From a virus: 57,363 bases of DNA. The translations under genes and the position numbers were made by a program. The notes under the pieces were generated by a model. That model saw only the letters and a program-made list of their open reading frames with translations. It was not told the origin of the DNA and did no database searches. Every line of letters begins with the position of its first letter. Position 1 is the stretch's first letter. Positions 1 to 7,493 of the stretch are shown here, piece after piece. Location of the stretch: IMG/VR virus record IMGVR_UViG_3300020420_000002, positions 1-57,363 of that record. The stretch is one strand, 5' to 3'.

Positions 1-77
1 GAATTTCGCGTAGAAGGCGAAGAATTCAAACATTATGCGAACGAATGGTGGAAAAAAGTAGATCAATATTACAAACA
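1..77. repeat. Terminal direct repeat, left copy
   Basis: The first 77 bases are identical to 57287-57363. A gene truncated at the right edge resumes in frame here, so the repeat closes a circle. An overlap of exactly 77 bases is what a de Bruijn assembler using k=77 leaves on a circular contig. It is therefore more likely an assembly overlap than a biological terminal repeat. Confidence 0.95.
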
Positions 78-2610: not shown

Positions 2611-2627
2611 GTGGGCGGGACCCACCC
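2611..2627 (+). repeat. GC palindrome copy 1
   Basis: GTGGGCGGGACCCACCC, a 5-bp stem GTGGG/CCCAC around CGGGA. It is preceded by AGAGAAGAGCTT, shared in variant form with copies 5, 6 and 7. No T-run follows. Confidence 0.85.
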
Positions 2628-2674
2628 GTGGCCTGCGGCCTGTGCTTGCGACTTGTGGACTATGGTGCGTGCTT

Positions 2675-2698
2675 GTGGGCGGGACCCACCCAATTTTT
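2675..2698 (+). repeat. GC palindrome copy 2, terminator-like
   Basis: GTGGGCGGGACCCACCC at 2675-2691, followed by AATTTTTTT. This copy fits a Rho-independent terminator for the plus-strand genes ending at 2548. Confidence 0.8.
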
Positions 2699-2793
2699 TT
2701 ATTTATGCTTGAGGGCTGGTGGAATACAACCAGCCCCCGCTTGAGGGTTTCCCAATTTTAGGTGTAGTACAACCCCACAATCGAACACCATTC

Positions 2794-3402
2794 CTAATGT
2801 TCACCATAAGAAATATTTTTAATTTTTGGATTCCAGCATTTTCTACAGTCGAGACATTGCCCGCCCTGCTGCGGCGCTGGACATGTTGCTTTTTTAGTCA
2901 CAACAGTGGAAGTATTCGGCCAGCTTTTAATTGGTCCCTGATCAACCATTGGTGAAGAAATTCTAATTGTTAAATTCTTCGGCGCTCTTTGTAAGTGGTC
3001 CTTGATCCAAGCTTCTTTGGTTGGCATCCAATGGCGCCTTGATGGCGTCCGTTTACATACTTCAAAAATTTTATTTAAATGATCCAGGCTTTGTACATCG
3101 CCTGAGTCGTGCCATCTAAAAACATCGGGCTTTTTATTATTAATCAAAGTCGTCATTGCGTGGACCCATAACTCATGTTTAAGGGCCTTCAATCTTCTGT
3201 ATTGTGCATCTTGTACGATCTTAAAAACGTAACAACCTTTAAGAGCATAACAATTGCTACAGACGCTGCCTTCTACTTTTTGCAGCTTGCCGCCCGTGTT
3301 GCATTCTTTAGCAGGAAGGCCAATTGACCATCCAGGCATTTTGCCAGGCTTGCTTAGGCCTCCTACTATCTCCCACGCTTGAGCCGTGTTTAATTCTTTC
3401 AT
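2794..3402 (-). CDS. Gene product 88-like protein
   Basis: A 202-residue protein resembling the phage gp88 family, known from actinobacteriophages and marine phages; the biochemical role is not established. Visible features are a Cys-x2-Cys-Tyr-Ala cluster near residue 50 and a Trp-His-Asp-Ser-Gly-Asp motif near residue 98. A C-terminal set of cysteines (CPAPQQGGQCLDCRKCW) could bind a metal or an iron-sulfur cluster. The Cys pattern recalls radical SAM proteins, but a canonical Cx3Cx2C is not evident. It is read with the 40-residue gene at 3399-3521, with which it shares an ATGA overlap, from the promoter at 3625-3652. Confidence 0.7.
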   Translation of the reverse strand: MKELNTAQAWEIVGGLSKPGKMPGWSIGLPAKECNTGGKLQKVEGSVCSNCYALKGCYVFKIVQDAQYRRLKALKHELWVHAMTTLINNKKPDVFRWHDSGDVQSLDHLNKIFEVCKRTPSRRHWMPTKEAWIKDHLQRAPKNLTIRISSPMVDQGPIKSWPNTSTVVTKKATCPAPQQGGQCLDCRKCWNPKIKNISYGEH

Positions 3403-3521
3403 TTTTTATTTTTTTTAATTACCGCTTTTTCTAGTTCCATTATGAAACCCGAATATTCTTTTGTAATTTCTTCGCCGTAACACTTTTTCCAAGCGTCTAA
3501 TATTTCCTTAATTGTAAGCAT
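3399..3521 (-). CDS. Small hypothetical protein, 40 aa
   Basis: A 40-residue mostly helical protein that ends in a Lys/Asn-rich tail. Two things support it: a strong ribosome binding site (GGAAGGAAT, reading the minus strand) just upstream, and an ATGA overlap with the gp88-like start, which implies translational coupling. The function is unknown. It is first in a two-gene minus-strand operon with a roughly 100-nt leader. Confidence 0.65.
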   Translation of the reverse strand: MLTIKEILDAWKKCYGEEITKEYSGFIMELEKAVIKKNKK

Positions 3522-3548
3522 AATTATTATATTCCTTCCTTTTAATGC

Positions 3549-3617
3549 GGCTAGTAAACGTCAGTTTAAAACATCTTTCAATTCACCAGAACAAGCTGGC
3601 CGCCTCTCTTACTAGCC
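3549..3617 (-). promoter_or_regulatory. Leader inverted repeat of gp88-like operon
   Basis: GGCTAGTAA at 3549-3557 is matched by TTACTAGCC at 3609-3617, a perfect 9-bp stem closing a 51-nt loop in the 5' leader of the minus-strand operon. A closed long-range stem in a leader can be a regulatory RNA domain. I recognise no known riboswitch class. Confidence 0.45.
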
Positions 3618-3624
3618 TGTTTTA

Positions 3625-3652
3625 TATATAGGATATTATAGGAATATGTCAA
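3625..3652 (-). promoter_or_regulatory. Sigma70-like promoter with tandem TCCTA
   Basis: On the minus strand: TTGACA (3652-3647), a 16-bp spacer and TATATA (3630-3625). Two TCCTA boxes 10 bp apart fall in the spacer (plus-strand TAGGA at 3629-3633 and 3639-3643), the second touching the -10. It drives the 40-aa gene and the gp88-like gene. Confidence 0.7.
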
Positions 3653-3714
3653 GCGTTTAAAAATTTTATTTTCAACTAAAAAGTGATTGACACAACATAT
3701 AGTGGTTAGTGCAT

Positions 3715-3731
3715 GTGGGCGGGACCCACCC
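3715..3731 (+). repeat. GC palindrome copy 3
   Basis: GTGGGCGGGACCCACCC preceded by GTTAGTGCAT. Copy 4, 39 bp later, has the near-identical lead GTTAGTGCTT, so the two look like a local duplication. Confidence 0.85.
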
Positions 3732-3753
3732 TTTGAGCTTGTGGTTAGTGCTT

Positions 3754-3770
3754 GTGGGCGGGACCCACCC
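3754..3770 (+). repeat. GC palindrome copy 4
   Basis: GTGGGCGGGACCCACCC, followed by an A-rich run and then the hairpin cluster at 3781. Confidence 0.85.
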
Positions 3771-3780
3771 TAAAAAATAA

Positions 3781-4090
3781 AAAGGCTTAGCCTGTTGCCT
3801 CGAGTACCTACCCATTCCTCGACATTTTAACGGTAGAATTAACAACAGGTTCCACGCCTGAGCGCATTGCTCGATCAGAACTCTGATCCCAGATCCATCG
3901 TTGGACTAATCGCTAGCTAGAACGCCCACGGTGGATCTGGGATCAGCCCCGAGGAATTGTTAGGGTATCCTCGGGGCCTAGGATCCTTGCATCACCTAAC
4001 CAGTGCAAGGATCTTAGCCCTTGGAAGATTCATATTTATCGAGGTGAACCTTCCGAACACCTCAGTGTTTGCCAGAGGTAGTTGCCCTTC
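3781..4090 (+). ncRNA. Candidate structured RNA or hairpin cluster
   Basis: About 300 bp, clearly GC-richer than its surroundings and without a credible gene. Successive inverted repeats are: (1) GATCAG/CTGATC at 3873-3878/3883-3888 with a 4-nt loop. (2) A perfect 14-bp stem 3884-3897/3932-3945, extendable inward by seven positions with one mismatch and one wobble. (3) A perfect 10-bp stem 3946-3955/3968-3977 with a 12-nt loop. (4) A 14-bp stem with one G-U wobble, 3978-3991/4004-4017, 12-nt loop. (5) GAGGTG/CACCTC at 4041-4046/4058-4063. Stems 2, 3 and 4 are contiguous and could stack; stems 1 and 2 exclude each other. I match it to no known RNA family. DNA-level cruciforms at an origin or packaging site are the main alternative. 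The strand is assumed. Confidence 0.55.
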
Positions 4091-4249
4091 AACTTAACAA
4101 TACAAATCCACAATAACAGAATATCCTATAATGTAAAGGACAATATTGTCGCACCTTATTTAGAATCGTTCCAATGTAGAGAAGAGCATGTGGGCGGGGC
4201 CCACCCTAAAAAAAGAAAAAATTTTTTTTAGTTTTTTTAAATTATTTGT
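4091..4249. other. Non-coding stretch before the 4320 gene
   Basis: This contains ATATCCTATAAT at 4122-4133, a -10-like element carrying one TCCTA box (4124-4128). It also has palindrome copy 5 (4190-4206) and a long A/T-homopolymer tract to about 4240. No gene is visible. Confidence 0.6.
4190..4206 (+). repeat. GC palindrome copy 5
   Basis: Variant GTGGGCGGGGCCCACCC (A to G in the loop side), preceded by GTAGAGAAGAGCAT. It is followed by an A-rich and then T-rich tract, so it may terminate transcription leaving the hairpin cluster. Confidence 0.85.
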
Positions 4250-4278
4250 TTGACAGTTATCCTATAATTTCCTATAAC
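4250..4278 (+). promoter_or_regulatory. Sigma70-like promoter with tandem TCCTA
   Basis: TTGACA at 4250-4255, a 17-bp spacer and TATAAC at 4273-4278. TCCTA boxes at 4260-4264 and 4270-4274 are 10 bp apart, the second overlapping the -10. It precedes the gene at 4320. Confidence 0.75.
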
Positions 4279-4319
4279 AAATCAGTTGTAATAATAACAA
4301 AAACAGAAAGGAATACATT

Positions 4320-4910
4320 ATGCAACCATTAAGAAAAGACCACGTTGACCACTACAAAGATGTTGTGCATGAAGAGTTTAATAATGCGTCTTCATCTATT
4401 GAAAGTGAAATCCATGTTAAAGCTAGTGAGATAACAGATAAGAAATCACCTCACTTTGCAAAGGAACTTGGGTTTGATAAATTAATTTCAGAACTAGATA
4501 AGAGAGTTAAAAAACTTCTGAAATTTCAAAACGAAAAAGCCAGAATAGAGCATGACCTTGAGGTTGAAGCTAGAAAAGTAGCTGAAAAAATTGAGGACAA
4601 ATTTTCTGGTTTAAGAAGATATAGAAAATGGAGTACTGATATGAGTTCTATTAAGGTTAAAGATGAAAACCCAATAGACTATGTAACAAAAAAAATAAAA
4701 AAAGTTTGTTACGAGGAAGCAGAAAAGCATGTCAGGAAAGGTCATAAATTATATCATGCACTTGGAAATAAAAGAAAAAAGTGTTTGAATATACTTTATA
4801 CTGGAAGCCATATTCAACCAACATTAGTTGAGTTGAGTAAGGAAATGAAAACCGCTAATATTGAATTACAGATACCAAGTTCTTTATTAGCTTTACCACC
4901 GACTAAATAA
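4320..4910 (+). CDS. Hypothetical coiled-coil protein, 196 aa
   Basis: A 196-residue protein I cannot assign. Residues 45-95 are a highly charged helix with heptad-like spacing of Leu, Ile and Val, likely a coiled coil. A Lys-rich segment follows, and a Pro/Leu-rich C-terminus ends the protein. No membrane segment or enzyme motif is seen. The promoter at 4250-4278 and an AGAAAGGA ribosome binding site precede the ATG closely, marking it as an early gene with its own control. A 58-residue membrane protein gene follows after one base, so the two form an operon. Confidence 0.7.
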   Translation: MQPLRKDHVDHYKDVVHEEFNNASSSIESEIHVKASEITDKKSPHFAKELGFDKLISELDKRVKKLLKFQNEKARIEHDLEVEARKVAEKIEDKFSGLRRYRKWSTDMSSIKVKDENPIDYVTKKIKKVCYEEAEKHVRKGHKLYHALGNKRKKCLNILYTGSHIQPTLVELSKEMKTANIELQIPSSLLALPPTK

Positions 4911-4911
4911 T

Positions 4912-5088
4912 ATGGAAATATTATTATATTCTGGCATGGTTTTAATCATTGGTGGTTTTGGATTGTTTTTATATTCAGAAATAAAGTTACGAGAAATAGA
5001 TCGTAAAATGTTTTTGAATGAGCAATTACATAAATCATTCATGGAAGCAAAAAAAGAAAGTGAGGATAAACAATTAAAATTATTCTAA
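4912..5088 (+). CDS. Small single-span membrane protein
   Basis: A 58-residue protein with one hydrophobic segment (residues 3-21) of Leu, Ile, Val, Gly and Phe. A highly charged cytoplasmic-type helix rich in Glu and Lys follows. The layout fits an N-out/C-in inner-membrane peptide. It starts one base after the stop of the 196-aa gene, so co-translation is likely. The function is unknown: an early host-takeover, superinfection-exclusion or antiholin-like peptide are all possible, and nothing in the sequence decides between them. Confidence 0.65.
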   Translation: MEILLYSGMVLIIGGFGLFLYSEIKLREIDRKMFLNEQLHKSFMEAKKESEDKQLKLF

Positions 5089-5098
5089 CTTAAAACTT

Positions 5099-5123
5099 GG
5101 CGCGAGATTAACACACTCGCGCC
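5099..5123 (+). terminator. GC-rich hairpin after the 4912 gene
   Basis: A perfect 8-bp inverted repeat GGCGCGAG/CTCGCGCC around a 9-nt loop lies 10 bp after the stop codon at 5088. The following run is A-rich rather than T-rich, so it is a weak intrinsic terminator in either direction. It could instead protect the 3' end of the transcript. Confidence 0.45.
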
Positions 5124-5149
5124 ACCGAAAAAAAATTAGATAAGAGCAT

Positions 5150-5166
5150 GTGGGCGGGACCCACCC
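5150..5166 (+). repeat. GC palindrome copy 6
   Basis: GTGGGCGGGACCCACCC preceded by AGATAAGAGCAT, close to the lead of copies 5 and 7. It lies 30 bp before the DnaA box. Confidence 0.85.
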
Positions 5167-5184
5167 ATATAAAAAAACAATATG

Positions 5185-5300
5185 TTGTGGTTAAGTTATC
5201 CACAGGCACTAAAATTAATTTAAAAATAATGAATTATTTTCTTGCAAATAAAATCCTATAAATTATATTACATTTAAATTAACTTAACGAAAGGAATACA
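5185..5300. other. Candidate replication origin
   Basis: TTATCCACA at 5196-5204 is a perfect consensus DnaA box. TGTGG at 5186-5190 makes a short inverted repeat with the CCACA of the box. The next 90 bp (5211-5300) are almost pure A/T with several runs, as expected of a DNA-unwinding element. A promoter (5242-5269) reads through it. Only one perfect box is present, so the origin call is tentative; phage origins often rely on transcription rather than DnaA. Confidence 0.45.
5242..5269 (+). promoter_or_regulatory. Sigma70-like promoter
   Basis: TTGCAA at 5242-5247, a 16-bp spacer and TATATT at 5264-5269. A single TCCTA box at 5254-5258 lies ten bases before the -10. It precedes the 5302 gene and its GAAAGGA ribosome binding site. 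Confidence 0.6.
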
Positions 5301-5301
5301 A

Positions 5302-5760
5302 ATGGCTTTAATAATACACTACGAAGGTTTAAAGCACTTTAACAATGACGGCGGTTTTCTTCCAGGTGGCTTTGGAAAAAAACAAGCTGATCAAATCGGT
5401 TGGTTTATGATGTCAGCTGGCATCACGGAAATCACAGAAAAAAATATTCCAGAACTTTTATTTAGAGCAAAGTTTATGGATACTTGTTGTGGTGGAGTAC
5501 CGGTTTTTTATAACCCAAATGTTTTTGAAGAGAAGGGTACTAAAGTTTGTGACTACAAAGATGTAGCTTATAACTTTAAAAAACATTTAGGTTTAAAAAT
5601 AGAGGTAACAAATCAAGGAATAAAATTACCTGGAACTAGACATCAATTCATGGTCCAAGTTATGAGAAGCATGGAACGAGATATCTTATGGGATATAAAA
5701 GATATCGATACAGATGTTAGTTGGAAAGATCATGTAAAGGAGGAACACGTGAATAATTAG
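5302..5760 (+). CDS. Hypothetical protein, 152 aa
   Basis: A 152-residue soluble protein of unknown function. The N-terminal half has a Gly/Phe-rich loop and a Cys-Cys-Gly-Gly stretch near residue 61. The C-terminus is acidic and helical. It is an early-type gene: the promoter at 5242, the GAAAGGA ribosome binding site and the AT-rich upstream tract all match those before the genes at 133 and 4320. It is the last gene before the parS-containing gap and does not share an operon with terL, which has its own promoter. Confidence 0.7.
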   Translation: MALIIHYEGLKHFNNDGGFLPGGFGKKQADQIGWFMMSAGITEITEKNIPELLFRAKFMDTCCGGVPVFYNPNVFEEKGTKVCDYKDVAYNFKKHLGLKIEVTNQGIKLPGTRHQFMVQVMRSMERDILWDIKDIDTDVSWKDHVKEEHVNN

Positions 5761-5782
5761 TTTCGTTAAGCCATGCGGTTCT

Positions 5783-5812
5783 TGCATAGGGTATCCTACA
5801 ATATCCTATGCA
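5783..5812. repeat. Inverted repeat enclosing tandem TATCCTA
   Basis: TGCATAGG at 5783-5790 and CCTATGCA at 5805-5812 form a perfect 8-bp inverted repeat. TATCCTA occurs at 5792-5798 and 5802-5808, 10 bp apart, the second partly inside the right arm. The tandem boxes match those at the early promoters, but here no well-spaced -35 is seen. It may be an operator, or a terminator for the 5302 gene. Confidence 0.55.
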
Positions 5813-5851
5813 GAAACTGCATACCACTCTGGGTTGTGTAGAGAAGAGCAT

Positions 5852-5867
5852 GTGGGCGGGACCCACC
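5852..5867 (+). repeat. GC palindrome copy 7
   Basis: GTGGGCGGGACCCACC preceded by GTAGAGAAGAGCAT, shared exactly with copy 5. It lies 45 bp upstream of the parS site. Confidence 0.85.
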
Positions 5868-5869
5868 AC

Positions 5870-5994: not shown

Positions 5995-6017
5995 ACTTTC
6001 TACCCATATTGAATTAT

Positions 6018-7493
6018 ATGCTAACAGTACAAGATATAAATAAAATTGAAGATCCTATCGAAAGAAAAAAACTAAAGATACAGATCATACAAAGACATCA
6101 AAGAAAAGAGCTCAAACAAATTCGTACCAATTTTTTGACTTTTGTAAAAAAGATGTGGCCAGATTTTATAGAGGGGTCCCACCATGAGACTATCGCAGAT
6201 AAGTTTAATAAACTTGCAACAGGAGAGCTCACTCGTTTAATTATCAATATGCCACCCAGGCATACCAAATCAGAATTTGCATCATTCTTTTTACCTGCTT
6301 GGATGATCGGGCAGAATCCAAAATTAAAAATTATTCAAGCAACTCACACAGCCGAGCTTGCAATAAACTTTGGAAGAAAAACAAAACATCTAATTGATTC
6401 TAGTGAATATCAAAATGTTTTTAAAACAAGACTCCAAGAAGATAGTAAAGCTGCAGGACGTTGGAATACTTCTGATGGCGGTGAGTATTTTGCAGTCGGT
6501 GTCCAAGGTGCGGTAACCGGTAGAGGTGCAGACTTATTAATTATAGATGATCCACATTCAGAGCAAGATGTGAGCTCACCAAATGCATTCGATAAAGCAT
6601 ACGAGTGGTATACTAGTGGACCGAGGCAAAGGCTTCAACCAGGAGGAAGAATTGTTTTGGTTATGACACGTTGGTCAACAAAAGATCTTACACAAAAATT
6701 ATTAAACGCACAGTCGAACGAGAACGGTGATCAGTGGGACGTGATTGAGTTTCCTGCGGTCTTACCTAATGGTAAACCAGTCTGGCCAGAATATTGGAAG
6801 CTCGAGGACCTCGAATCTGTTAAGGCGGCAACAGGTGTTGCAAAATGGAACGCGCAGTACATGCAGAACCCAACATCAGAAGAAGGAGCTCTAATCAAAA
6901 GAGAGTGGTGGAAAGATTGGGAACACGATCATTTACCAGTTATCGATCACATTATTCAAAGTTACGATACAGCATATCTTAAAAAAGAGACTGCCGATTA
7001 TTCTGCTATTACAACATGGGGAATTTTTCGTCCGAACGAGGACAGCGGACCTAATTTAATATTATTAGATTCGTTTAAAGATAGGTTAGAGTTTCCAGAA
7101 CTTCGTCGTGTTGCATTAGAACAATATAAATATTGGAATCCTGAAACAGTTATCATAGAAGCAAAAGCATCAGGACTTCCGTTGATGTACGAATTACGAC
7201 AGATGGGAATTCCTGCTATGAATTTTACACCATCAAAAGGTCAAGATAAAATTGCAAGAGTTAATGCAGTCTCTCCTATGTTCGAAGCCGGACAAGTGTG
7301 GGCACCTTTGAAAGAAGAGTTTGCCCAAGAGTTAGTTGAAGAGTGTGCTGCGTTTCCATATGGCGACCATGATGATTTAGTTGACTCCACGACTCAAGCT
7401 CTGTTAAGATACAGACAAGGTGGTTTAGTAAGACACCCAGAAGACTATCAAGATGAACCTGGTCCCAAACGTAAAAAGAAGTTTTATTGGTAA
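6018..7493 (+). CDS. terL: Terminase large subunit
   Basis: A 491-residue packaging motor: an N-terminal ATPase drives DNA into the procapsid and a C-terminal RNase H-like nuclease cuts concatemers. A Walker-A-like MPPRHTKSEF lies near residue 80 (the Arg-x-x-Lys-Ser form usual for terminases), and Walker B LLIIDDP near 174. In the nuclease half, the first aspartate is in QSYDTAY and the last in GDHDDLVD near the C-terminus. The length is typical of this class. ATG 6018 is chosen; an in-frame TTG at 6009 is possible. The next gene overlaps its stop by one base. Its small-subunit partner is on the other strand at 1402-1881. Confidence 0.95.
   Translation: MLTVQDINKIEDPIERKKLKIQIIQRHQRKELKQIRTNFLTFVKKMWPDFIEGSHHETIADKFNKLATGELTRLIINMPPRHTKSEFASFFLPAWMIGQNPKLKIIQATHTAELAINFGRKTKHLIDSSEYQNVFKTRLQEDSKAAGRWNTSDGGEYFAVGVQGAVTGRGADLLIIDDPHSEQDVSSPNAFDKAYEWYTSGPRQRLQPGGRIVLVMTRWSTKDLTQKLLNAQSNENGDQWDVIEFPAVLPNGKPVWPEYWKLEDLESVKAATGVAKWNAQYMQNPTSEEGALIKREWWKDWEHDHLPVIDHIIQSYDTAYLKKETADYSAITTWGIFRPNEDSGPNLILLDSFKDRLEFPELRRVALEQYKYWNPETVIIEAKASGLPLMYELRQMGIPAMNFTPSKGQDKIARVNAVSPMFEAGQVWAPLKEEFAQELVEECAAFPYGDHDDLVDSTTQALLRYRQGGLVRHPEDYQDEPGPKRKKKFYW

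Follow-up and report, generated by a model that had tools for sequence, protein, structure and literature searches.

A candidate modular structured RNA on the minus strand upstream of GP88 in marine phages of the Pelagibacter phage HTVC027P group

Main finding

A hairpin cluster in a marine phage genome probably encodes a separately transcribed, modular structured RNA that is read from the minus strand and would act in trans, its constant hairpin ends serving as a handle and its tips being variable; we put the probability of this reading at roughly 0.62. The presence of a structured RNA on the minus strand of the locus is well supported by sequence comparison, which shows conserved structure, strand and position together with cassette turnover. 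We infer that the RNA is transcribed as its own unit and ends before the gene GP88, and that a constant handle is combined with diversifying tips.

SAR11 bacteria are the most abundant marine bacteria, and pelagiphages are their phages. The window, i.e. the whole stretch of DNA analysed here, comprises positions 1 to 57,363 (57,363 bases) of the IMG/VR record IMGVR_UViG_3300020420_000002. Its sequence assigns this marine phage to the group of Pelagibacter phage HTVC027P; the TerL is 68-70% identical to those of HTVC027P and phage 023Pt_psg01, and the host is deduced from these relatives. HTVC027P itself is described in PMC12753301 as a lytic, HTVC023P-type pelagiphage.

The hairpin array of the window

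The cluster occupies the gap upstream of GP88, which spans 917 bases between GP88 (2794-3402, minus) and a function-unassigned gene (4320-4910, plus). The original prediction placed at least four strong inverted repeats at 3781-4090, and the stems are found there. Specifically, stem 1 has 22-nt arms (3883-3904/3925-3946) that are 91% complementary with the outer 15 bp perfect, stem 2 is a perfect 10-bp stem (3946-3955/3968-3977), and stem 3 has arms that are 88% complementary (3975-3991/4004-4020). Two further hairpins follow stem 3 at 4023-4054 and 4058-4079. The segment folds with -125.6 kcal/mol (z -7.58) on the plus strand and -131.3 kcal/mol (z -5.84) on the minus strand, and beats its dinucleotide shuffles on both, 0 of 100 being as good on either. 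Its GC-richness within an AT-rich genome (0.43 at 3501-4000 vs mostly 0.30-0.40 across the window) and its lack of a credible gene (no ORF of at least 80 aa) were likewise borne out. The window matches no known RNA class, as Rfam gave no match at gathering level and no meaningful match at relaxed level, and a tRNA search of the window found none. The 310-bp unit first proposed does contain the cluster, but the unit is probably longer, covering about 3772-4118, and is best read on the minus strand. The features are as follows, in the direction of the proposed RNA.

4125-4152, minus: weak promoter match GCGACA-16-TATAGG with the perfect palindrome GACAATATTGTC (4139-4150), read from the sequence
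3772-4118, minus: proposed structured RNA with approximate, deduced ends; fold -131.7 kcal/mol (z -5.38), equalled by none of 100 shuffles; strand taken from the wobble asymmetry of relatives and from the minus strand being the more stable in 91 of 104 arrays
4023-4079, minus: two predicted 5' hairpins (4023-4054 and 4058-4079)
4063-4058 with 4046-4041, minus: possible pseudoknot of GAGGUG with CACCUC, a weak candidate with 3 sequences only (L003 and L010 alike, L004 with GACC/GGUC)
3978-4018, minus: hairpin C, whose stem is variable and whose loop, containing GUUAGGUGA, is the putative partner of the hairpin B loop; fold z -3.45
3946-3977, minus: hairpin B, variable stem, loop AUACCCUAACAAU; fold z -5.44
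3883-3946, minus: hairpin A, in which the end CUGAUCCC/GGGAUCAG is conserved and the paired stem and the tip vary; fold z -7.44; 185 dereplicated relatives
3772-3859, minus: terminator candidate, a hairpin (3783-3859; -23.0 kcal/mol, z -1.45 for the hairpin alone) followed directly by the U-tract UUUUUAUUUUUU (3783-3772; U5AU6)
3625-3652, minus: promoter-like TTGACA-16-TATATA of the GP88 operon (40-aa ORF at 3399-3521, then GP88), read from the sequence
2794-3402, minus: GP88 (Pfam PF17338, E 1.6e-26), the first large gene met downstream of the RNA

Several observations concern the surroundings. The 40-aa ORF overlaps the GP88 start by ATGA, and its position resembles that of HTVC027P gp34. 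GP88 has no solved relative by structure search (best E 0.1), and a nucleotide search of the phage collection with 721 window bases gave no match. GP88 and the RNA locus are flanked by the terminase genes, the small one at 1402-1890 and the large one at 6009-7493, which are encoded on opposite strands at a distance of 4 kb. Seven copies (at most 2 mismatches) of a palindromic, GC-rich box, GTGGGCGGGACCCACCC, occur in the window, all of them at 2611-5868, where shuffles expect 0; they adjoin promoters in the neighbourhood of GP88, of the array and of the 4320 gene, and are possibly binding sites of a phage regulator. A module right after the GP88 stop codon (2732-2790; GAGGGTTTCCCAATTTTAGGTGTAGTACAACCCCACAATCG on the plus strand) recurs within the arrays of loci L020 and L152; hence, modules of the array can also be located immediately behind GP88.

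Relatives carry the array at the same place

Scans of IMG/VR with the two flanking proteins gave 80 and 60 loci. Both flanking genes were present in 95 loci, representing 53 distinct gaps of 184 to 1,603 nt. Forty-eight of these exceed 500 nt; the hairpin CTGATC[CT]..[GA]GATCAG, referred to as class A, occurs in 32 of the 48 and is absent by that pattern from 16. Homologous regions lacking the stems had been named as evidence against the prediction; such gaps exist, but they are few, namely 5 of the 53 distinct gaps (184, 184, 217, 276, and 407 nt; loci L013, L014, L015/L017, L043, and L054), which have no class A hairpin. Together with the 16 long gaps, they indicate that class A is dispensable or has moved in some relatives. 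When 29 of the 53 distinct gaps were folded, all 25 long gaps among them had a z below -3 on the minus strand and 24 of 25 on the plus strand. These folds, the shuffles that never reach the fold of the window, and the same hairpin class in the cultured phage HTVC027P refute a chance cluster or assembly artefact without function.

A pattern scan of the viral collection for class A ends returned at least 120 stretches. Among the matches listed, homologues of window proteins are found in 116 of 118 newly fetched loci, and GP88 and TerL typically lie on either side of the hairpins; class A therefore belongs to one place in one phage family. The array takes the same place in HTVC027P and in phage 023Pt_psg01, whose first hairpin end reads CGATCCC, and CTGATCC was not seen in the stretches fetched from HTVC023P, DSL-LC04, and HTVC033P. 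In total, a hairpin/pseudoknot array occurs at this place in 104 dereplicated relatives among the matches listed (dereplicated on the 330 nt before the first class A hairpin, loci with short flanks dropped). A search of open-licence titles and abstracts, including those on pelagiphage noncoding RNA and Flavobacterium-1 RNA, found no description of this locus.

Bacterial genomes were considered as a source of class A and rejected: they hold 18 pattern matches vs about 29 expected by chance (257 Gb x 2 strands x 31 gap lengths x 2 / 4^20 = ~29), and 17 of the 18 have no window-like phage gene. The exception, L261, is KB911123.1, a single-cell scaffold of Flavobacterium sp. SCGC AAA160-P02 that carries phage genes like those of the window as well as the Flavobacterium-1 RNA (RF02976).

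A constant end on a variable but paired stem

In class A, represented by hairpin 3883-3946 of the window, the 8-bp end CTGATCCC/GGGATCAG is kept, while the stem changes completely and yet stays paired. We collected 210 distinct class A hairpins among the matches listed, 185 after dereplication, with a median length of 68; positions 1-8 are fixed by the search pattern and 9-10 partly. The position after the 8 outer pairs is an A.A mismatch in 162 of the 185. Pairs 10-18 take up to four pair types, with a Watson-Crick fraction falling from 0.98 to 0.64. Across pairs 10-17 this fraction is 0.914, compared with 0.591 (maximum 0.615) when the right arms are redealt (n=185). The covariation check proposed with the original prediction thus finds extensive compensatory change with the structure kept in about a hundred relatives, a signal that in part reflects cassette exchange rather than point change. 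Each relative locus has 1-3 class A copies at the same place (among the matches listed), and in the window CTGATCCCAG and its complement occur once each, at 3883 and 3937. The window's class A hairpin has no Rfam family at gathering or relaxed level. At class A tips, TTCTAG, TCTAGA, and GCTAGC are mildly enriched (10-15 of 183 vs 1.3-1.6 shuffled).

Wobble pairs point to an RNA read from the minus strand

Flanked mismatches within class A stems comprise, on the window's plus strand, 63 A.C, 3 G.T, and 8 others. The excess of A.C over G.T on this strand points to an RNA that is read from the minus strand, where these are G.U pairs, toward GP88. Because class A positions 1-8 are fixed by the search and 9-10 partly, the test was rerun on protein-fetched loci, which gave A.C vs G.T at 18 to 1 (binomial p 4e-5); pattern-fetched loci gave 51 to 2. 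Outside class A, the minus strand has 18 G.T vs 7 A.C. Moreover, the minus strand folds better in 91 of the 104 arrays vs 29 of 104 random coding pieces of the window. A minus-strand reading also fits the minus promoters ahead of the arrays and RF02976, which lies on the minus strand in several of them. The window is an exception in that its own wobbles run opposite (on the plus strand, T.G in A and G.T in C) and its z is better on the plus strand (-7.58 vs -5.84), though its energy is lower on the minus strand.

The original prediction regarded stems 1 and 2, which share bases 3884-3888, as an attenuator- or riboswitch-like switch of two exclusive stems. On the plus strand this is now highly improbable and largely refuted: the overlap is present in the window, where the plus fold has the larger z, but it (GATCAG..CTGATC, 3874-3889) occurs in only 7 of 176 distinct flanks, promoters enter the array from the far side on the plus strand in only 3 of 104 relatives, and the wobbles point to minus. 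What stands of that interpretation is a structured RNA outside the named classes in the window; the switch does not.

Promoters and the relation to GP88

A TTGACA-16..18-TATA promoter precedes the array on the minus strand in 42 of the 104 relatives, compared with 8 on the other strand. Array-leading promoters in relatives often form the dyad CTTGACAATAGGATTGTCAAG, and that of HTVC027P reads TTGACAATGGGATAGTCAAGGATTATATA. The window's weak match at 4125-4152 sits at the same place as the strong, dyad-bearing TTGACA-17-TATAT promoters of relatives; this copy is non-canonical and does not appear among the promoter-scan hits.

In 91 of the 104 arrays, GP88 follows downstream at no more than 1.5 kb (median distance 425 nt) and has the same orientation, which is consistent with the array being a cis-acting leader of the GP88 operon, e.g. 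an antitermination or processing leader. Terminators counted between array and GP88 on minus vs plus number 12 and 12, or 23 and 27, of 91, which does not separate the strands, and the absence of a detectable family-wide terminator there is also consistent with a leader. So is the grouping of HTVC027P gp33 (GP88) and gp34 in their own expression cluster, high at 6-9 h, as given in PMC12753301 for a cluster that covers the genes and not the array. However, GP88 has its own promoter-like site (TTGAC-15..20-TAw) within 110 nt in 54 of the 91 arrays, vs 2 of 91 on the other strand, and in the window a hairpin with a U-tract precedes the promoter of GP88. In addition, class A cassettes are wholly different at 95-97% GP88 identity, which is unusual for a cis regulator, and elsewhere GP88 sits in tight phage operons without such a gap. 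We consider the leader doubtful, at odds of somewhat worse than one in four.

GP88 as an obligate partner of the array was rejected, as the annotation of other GP88 phages (Caulobacter phage Seuss, Roseobacter CRP-2, Acinetobacter AM24, and uncultured MW202796) has no comparable gap directly upstream; Roseobacter phage CRP-125, with a 714-nt gap, is the exception among those compared by annotation. Degenerate tandem CAAGC repeats (AAGCTTCAAGCCGCAAGC..) precede the promoter of GP88 in 77 of 91 arrays (at least 3 CAAGC; e.g. L185 and L218), and were not noticed in the window.

Class A cassettes change more quickly than the adjoining gene

Grouped by GP88 nucleotide identity, locus pairs share the class A cassette in 12 of 12 cases at 99% or more, 4 of 7 at 97-99%, 0 of 9 at 95-97%, 3 of 134 at 90-95%, and 38 of 1116 at 80-90%; contigs fetched by both proteins are counted twice, and a small number of contigs accounts for the 9 pairs at 95-97% (L003/L083, L004/L085, L005/L091, and L156/L259). 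Yet 32 pairs share a cassette with GP88 below 85% identity or not alignable. Between the window and L004, the flanks align at 95% and 89% and the break falls at the tip of A. Hence, cassettes are exchanged with the structure retained, and their turnover is faster than that of the neighbouring gene.

Hairpins acting as DNA would account for several of these features: recombination or mobile hairpin sites of the attC or REPIN kind would have conserved ends, variable paired interiors, tandem copies, and cassette exchange, also between the 32 pairs with diverged GP88, and a position between terminase genes would suit a packaging signal or a replication origin. Nevertheless, the 63 to 3 ratio of A.C to G.T has no reason in double-stranded DNA, and an attC-like folded single strand would need to tolerate G.T on one strand only. 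Conserved-loop pseudoknots and an Rfam RNA occur in the same arrays on the same strand, the hairpins keep to one locus rather than spreading through genomes (among the matches listed), and the bacterial pattern matches stay within chance expectation, 17 of 18 being without a window-like phage gene. A role as DNA is thus unlikely.

Three features make a free RNA that acts in trans the likeliest reading: the array is preceded by a promoter of its own, phages with near-identical GP88 have completely different arrays, and the arrays of some relatives include RF02976, which Rfam lists as a stand-alone sRNA. On this reading, the product of the locus would be a structured RNA rather than a protein, encoded by the window's minus strand and transcribed from a separate promoter that has an operator-like dyad. 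Modules would follow in the order of 5' H-type pseudoknots and hairpins, class A, and others such as RF02976, and the RNA would end before the separate GP88 operon. The constant class A ends may be a handle for one common partner, either a host or phage protein or a second copy of the RNA, whereas pressure to diverge would act on the variable tips, as for a decoy or scaffold RNA that is produced in the infected cell and acts in trans. More tentatively, the locus may be a hypervariable RNA-cassette island, where HTVC027P-group phages gain, lose, and swap whole RNA modules by recombination faster than the adjoining genes. Each phage would then make, from one transcription unit, its own trans-acting RNA variant, perhaps a decoy or counter-defence under diversifying selection.

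Other modules of the arrays

Besides class A, the arrays contain other modules with a constant loop on a variable stem. The loops of the neighbouring hairpins B and C could kiss, and in the window CCUAAC (B) may pair with GUUAGG (C). C/B loop pairs in relatives are UUUAGG/CCUAAA (3 of 6), GUUUGG/CCAAAU, and AUUAGG/CCUAAG (one mismatch); this set comprises 6 dereplicated of 18 modules, with GG/CC fixed by the search and four free positions.

Near the 5' end of several arrays, the window's not among them, lies an H-type pseudoknot (15 sequences, 98.9% of cells paired). Seven of its 12 pairs are changed on both sides, with 31 double-changed cells vs 8.8 shuffled. The covariation score is 0.512 vs 0.139 shuffled; none of 500 shuffles reaches 0.512, and slid versions give 0.054-0.118. 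As the script returned 82 dereplicated segments, most of them chance, from which the 15 with conserved loops were picked by eye, these figures describe a selected set. A downstream module, CUUGCACC..AAAAGCAAGUAGG, was considered as a pseudoknot and rejected, its second stem being missing from some copies read.

Flavobacterium-1 RNA (RF02976) is found on the minus strand of HTVC027P with a covariance-model score of 90.2 bits. It exceeds the cut-off of 58.9 bits in 5 of 50 further records, and two of 12 other records match below it. At gathering level, Rfam finds RF02976 in L279 only among 20 relatives. The order A, RF02976, GP88 in one direction holds in 5 of the 5 records with all three nearby, and L285, L286, and L291 have RF02976 with no class A hairpin within 1.5 kb. 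Of 199 genomes from the family to which the Flavobacterium single cell belongs, its own is the only one with RF02976; the RNA lies on scaffold L261, which also carries homologues of GP88 and of three other window proteins. Therefore, Flavobacterium-1 RNA is probably a phage RNA with a misplaced bacterial name.

Comparison with known systems

A conserved, structured, and fast-changing pelagiphage RNA locus would join a small group of large RNAs from phages whose function is unexplained. Since host and phage are both in culture and directional RNA-seq has been published (PRJNA1253180), the role of such RNAs becomes a testable question. Judged from sequence, the array RNA would be a little-known kind of viral RNA whose hairpin shape is kept while its sequence is swapped between viruses. 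Flavobacterium-1 RNA, despite the bacterium in its Rfam name, probably belongs to phages. It is a module of several arrays and shares their strand, as well as their location in those cases where class A and GP88 are close by; it differs from the array in being one of many modules, and the window holds no match of at least 58.9 bits.

GOLLD and ROOL RNAs often lie near tRNA islands, whereas the window is without tRNA. PMC12286853 describes both as large structured RNAs of phages and prophages with open function, ROOL with pseudoknots and GOLLD with a conserved 3' part and a less conserved 5' part. The array would resemble them as a large structured phage RNA. It differs in that the window and 20 relatives give no covariance-model match (Rfam 15) to either and in that exchange affects the array modules themselves.

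Integron attC sites and REPINs have conserved ends and a variable but paired interior, as does the array. They differ from the array, which keeps to one locus in one phage family and has strand-specific wobbles. Integron attC sites have conserved core sites, a site-specific integrase, and gene cassettes, whereas no cargo genes lie between the array hairpins read. Unlike a dispersed, many-copy REPIN, CTGATCCCAG and its complement occur once each in the window. PeSL cassettes of T4-type phages are small modules of promoter/terminator and stem-loop in intergenic gaps, shuffled between related phages. The arrays share with them exchangeable stem-loop modules with a promoter in an intergenic gap, and differ in comprising hundreds of bases of putative structured RNA under one promoter.
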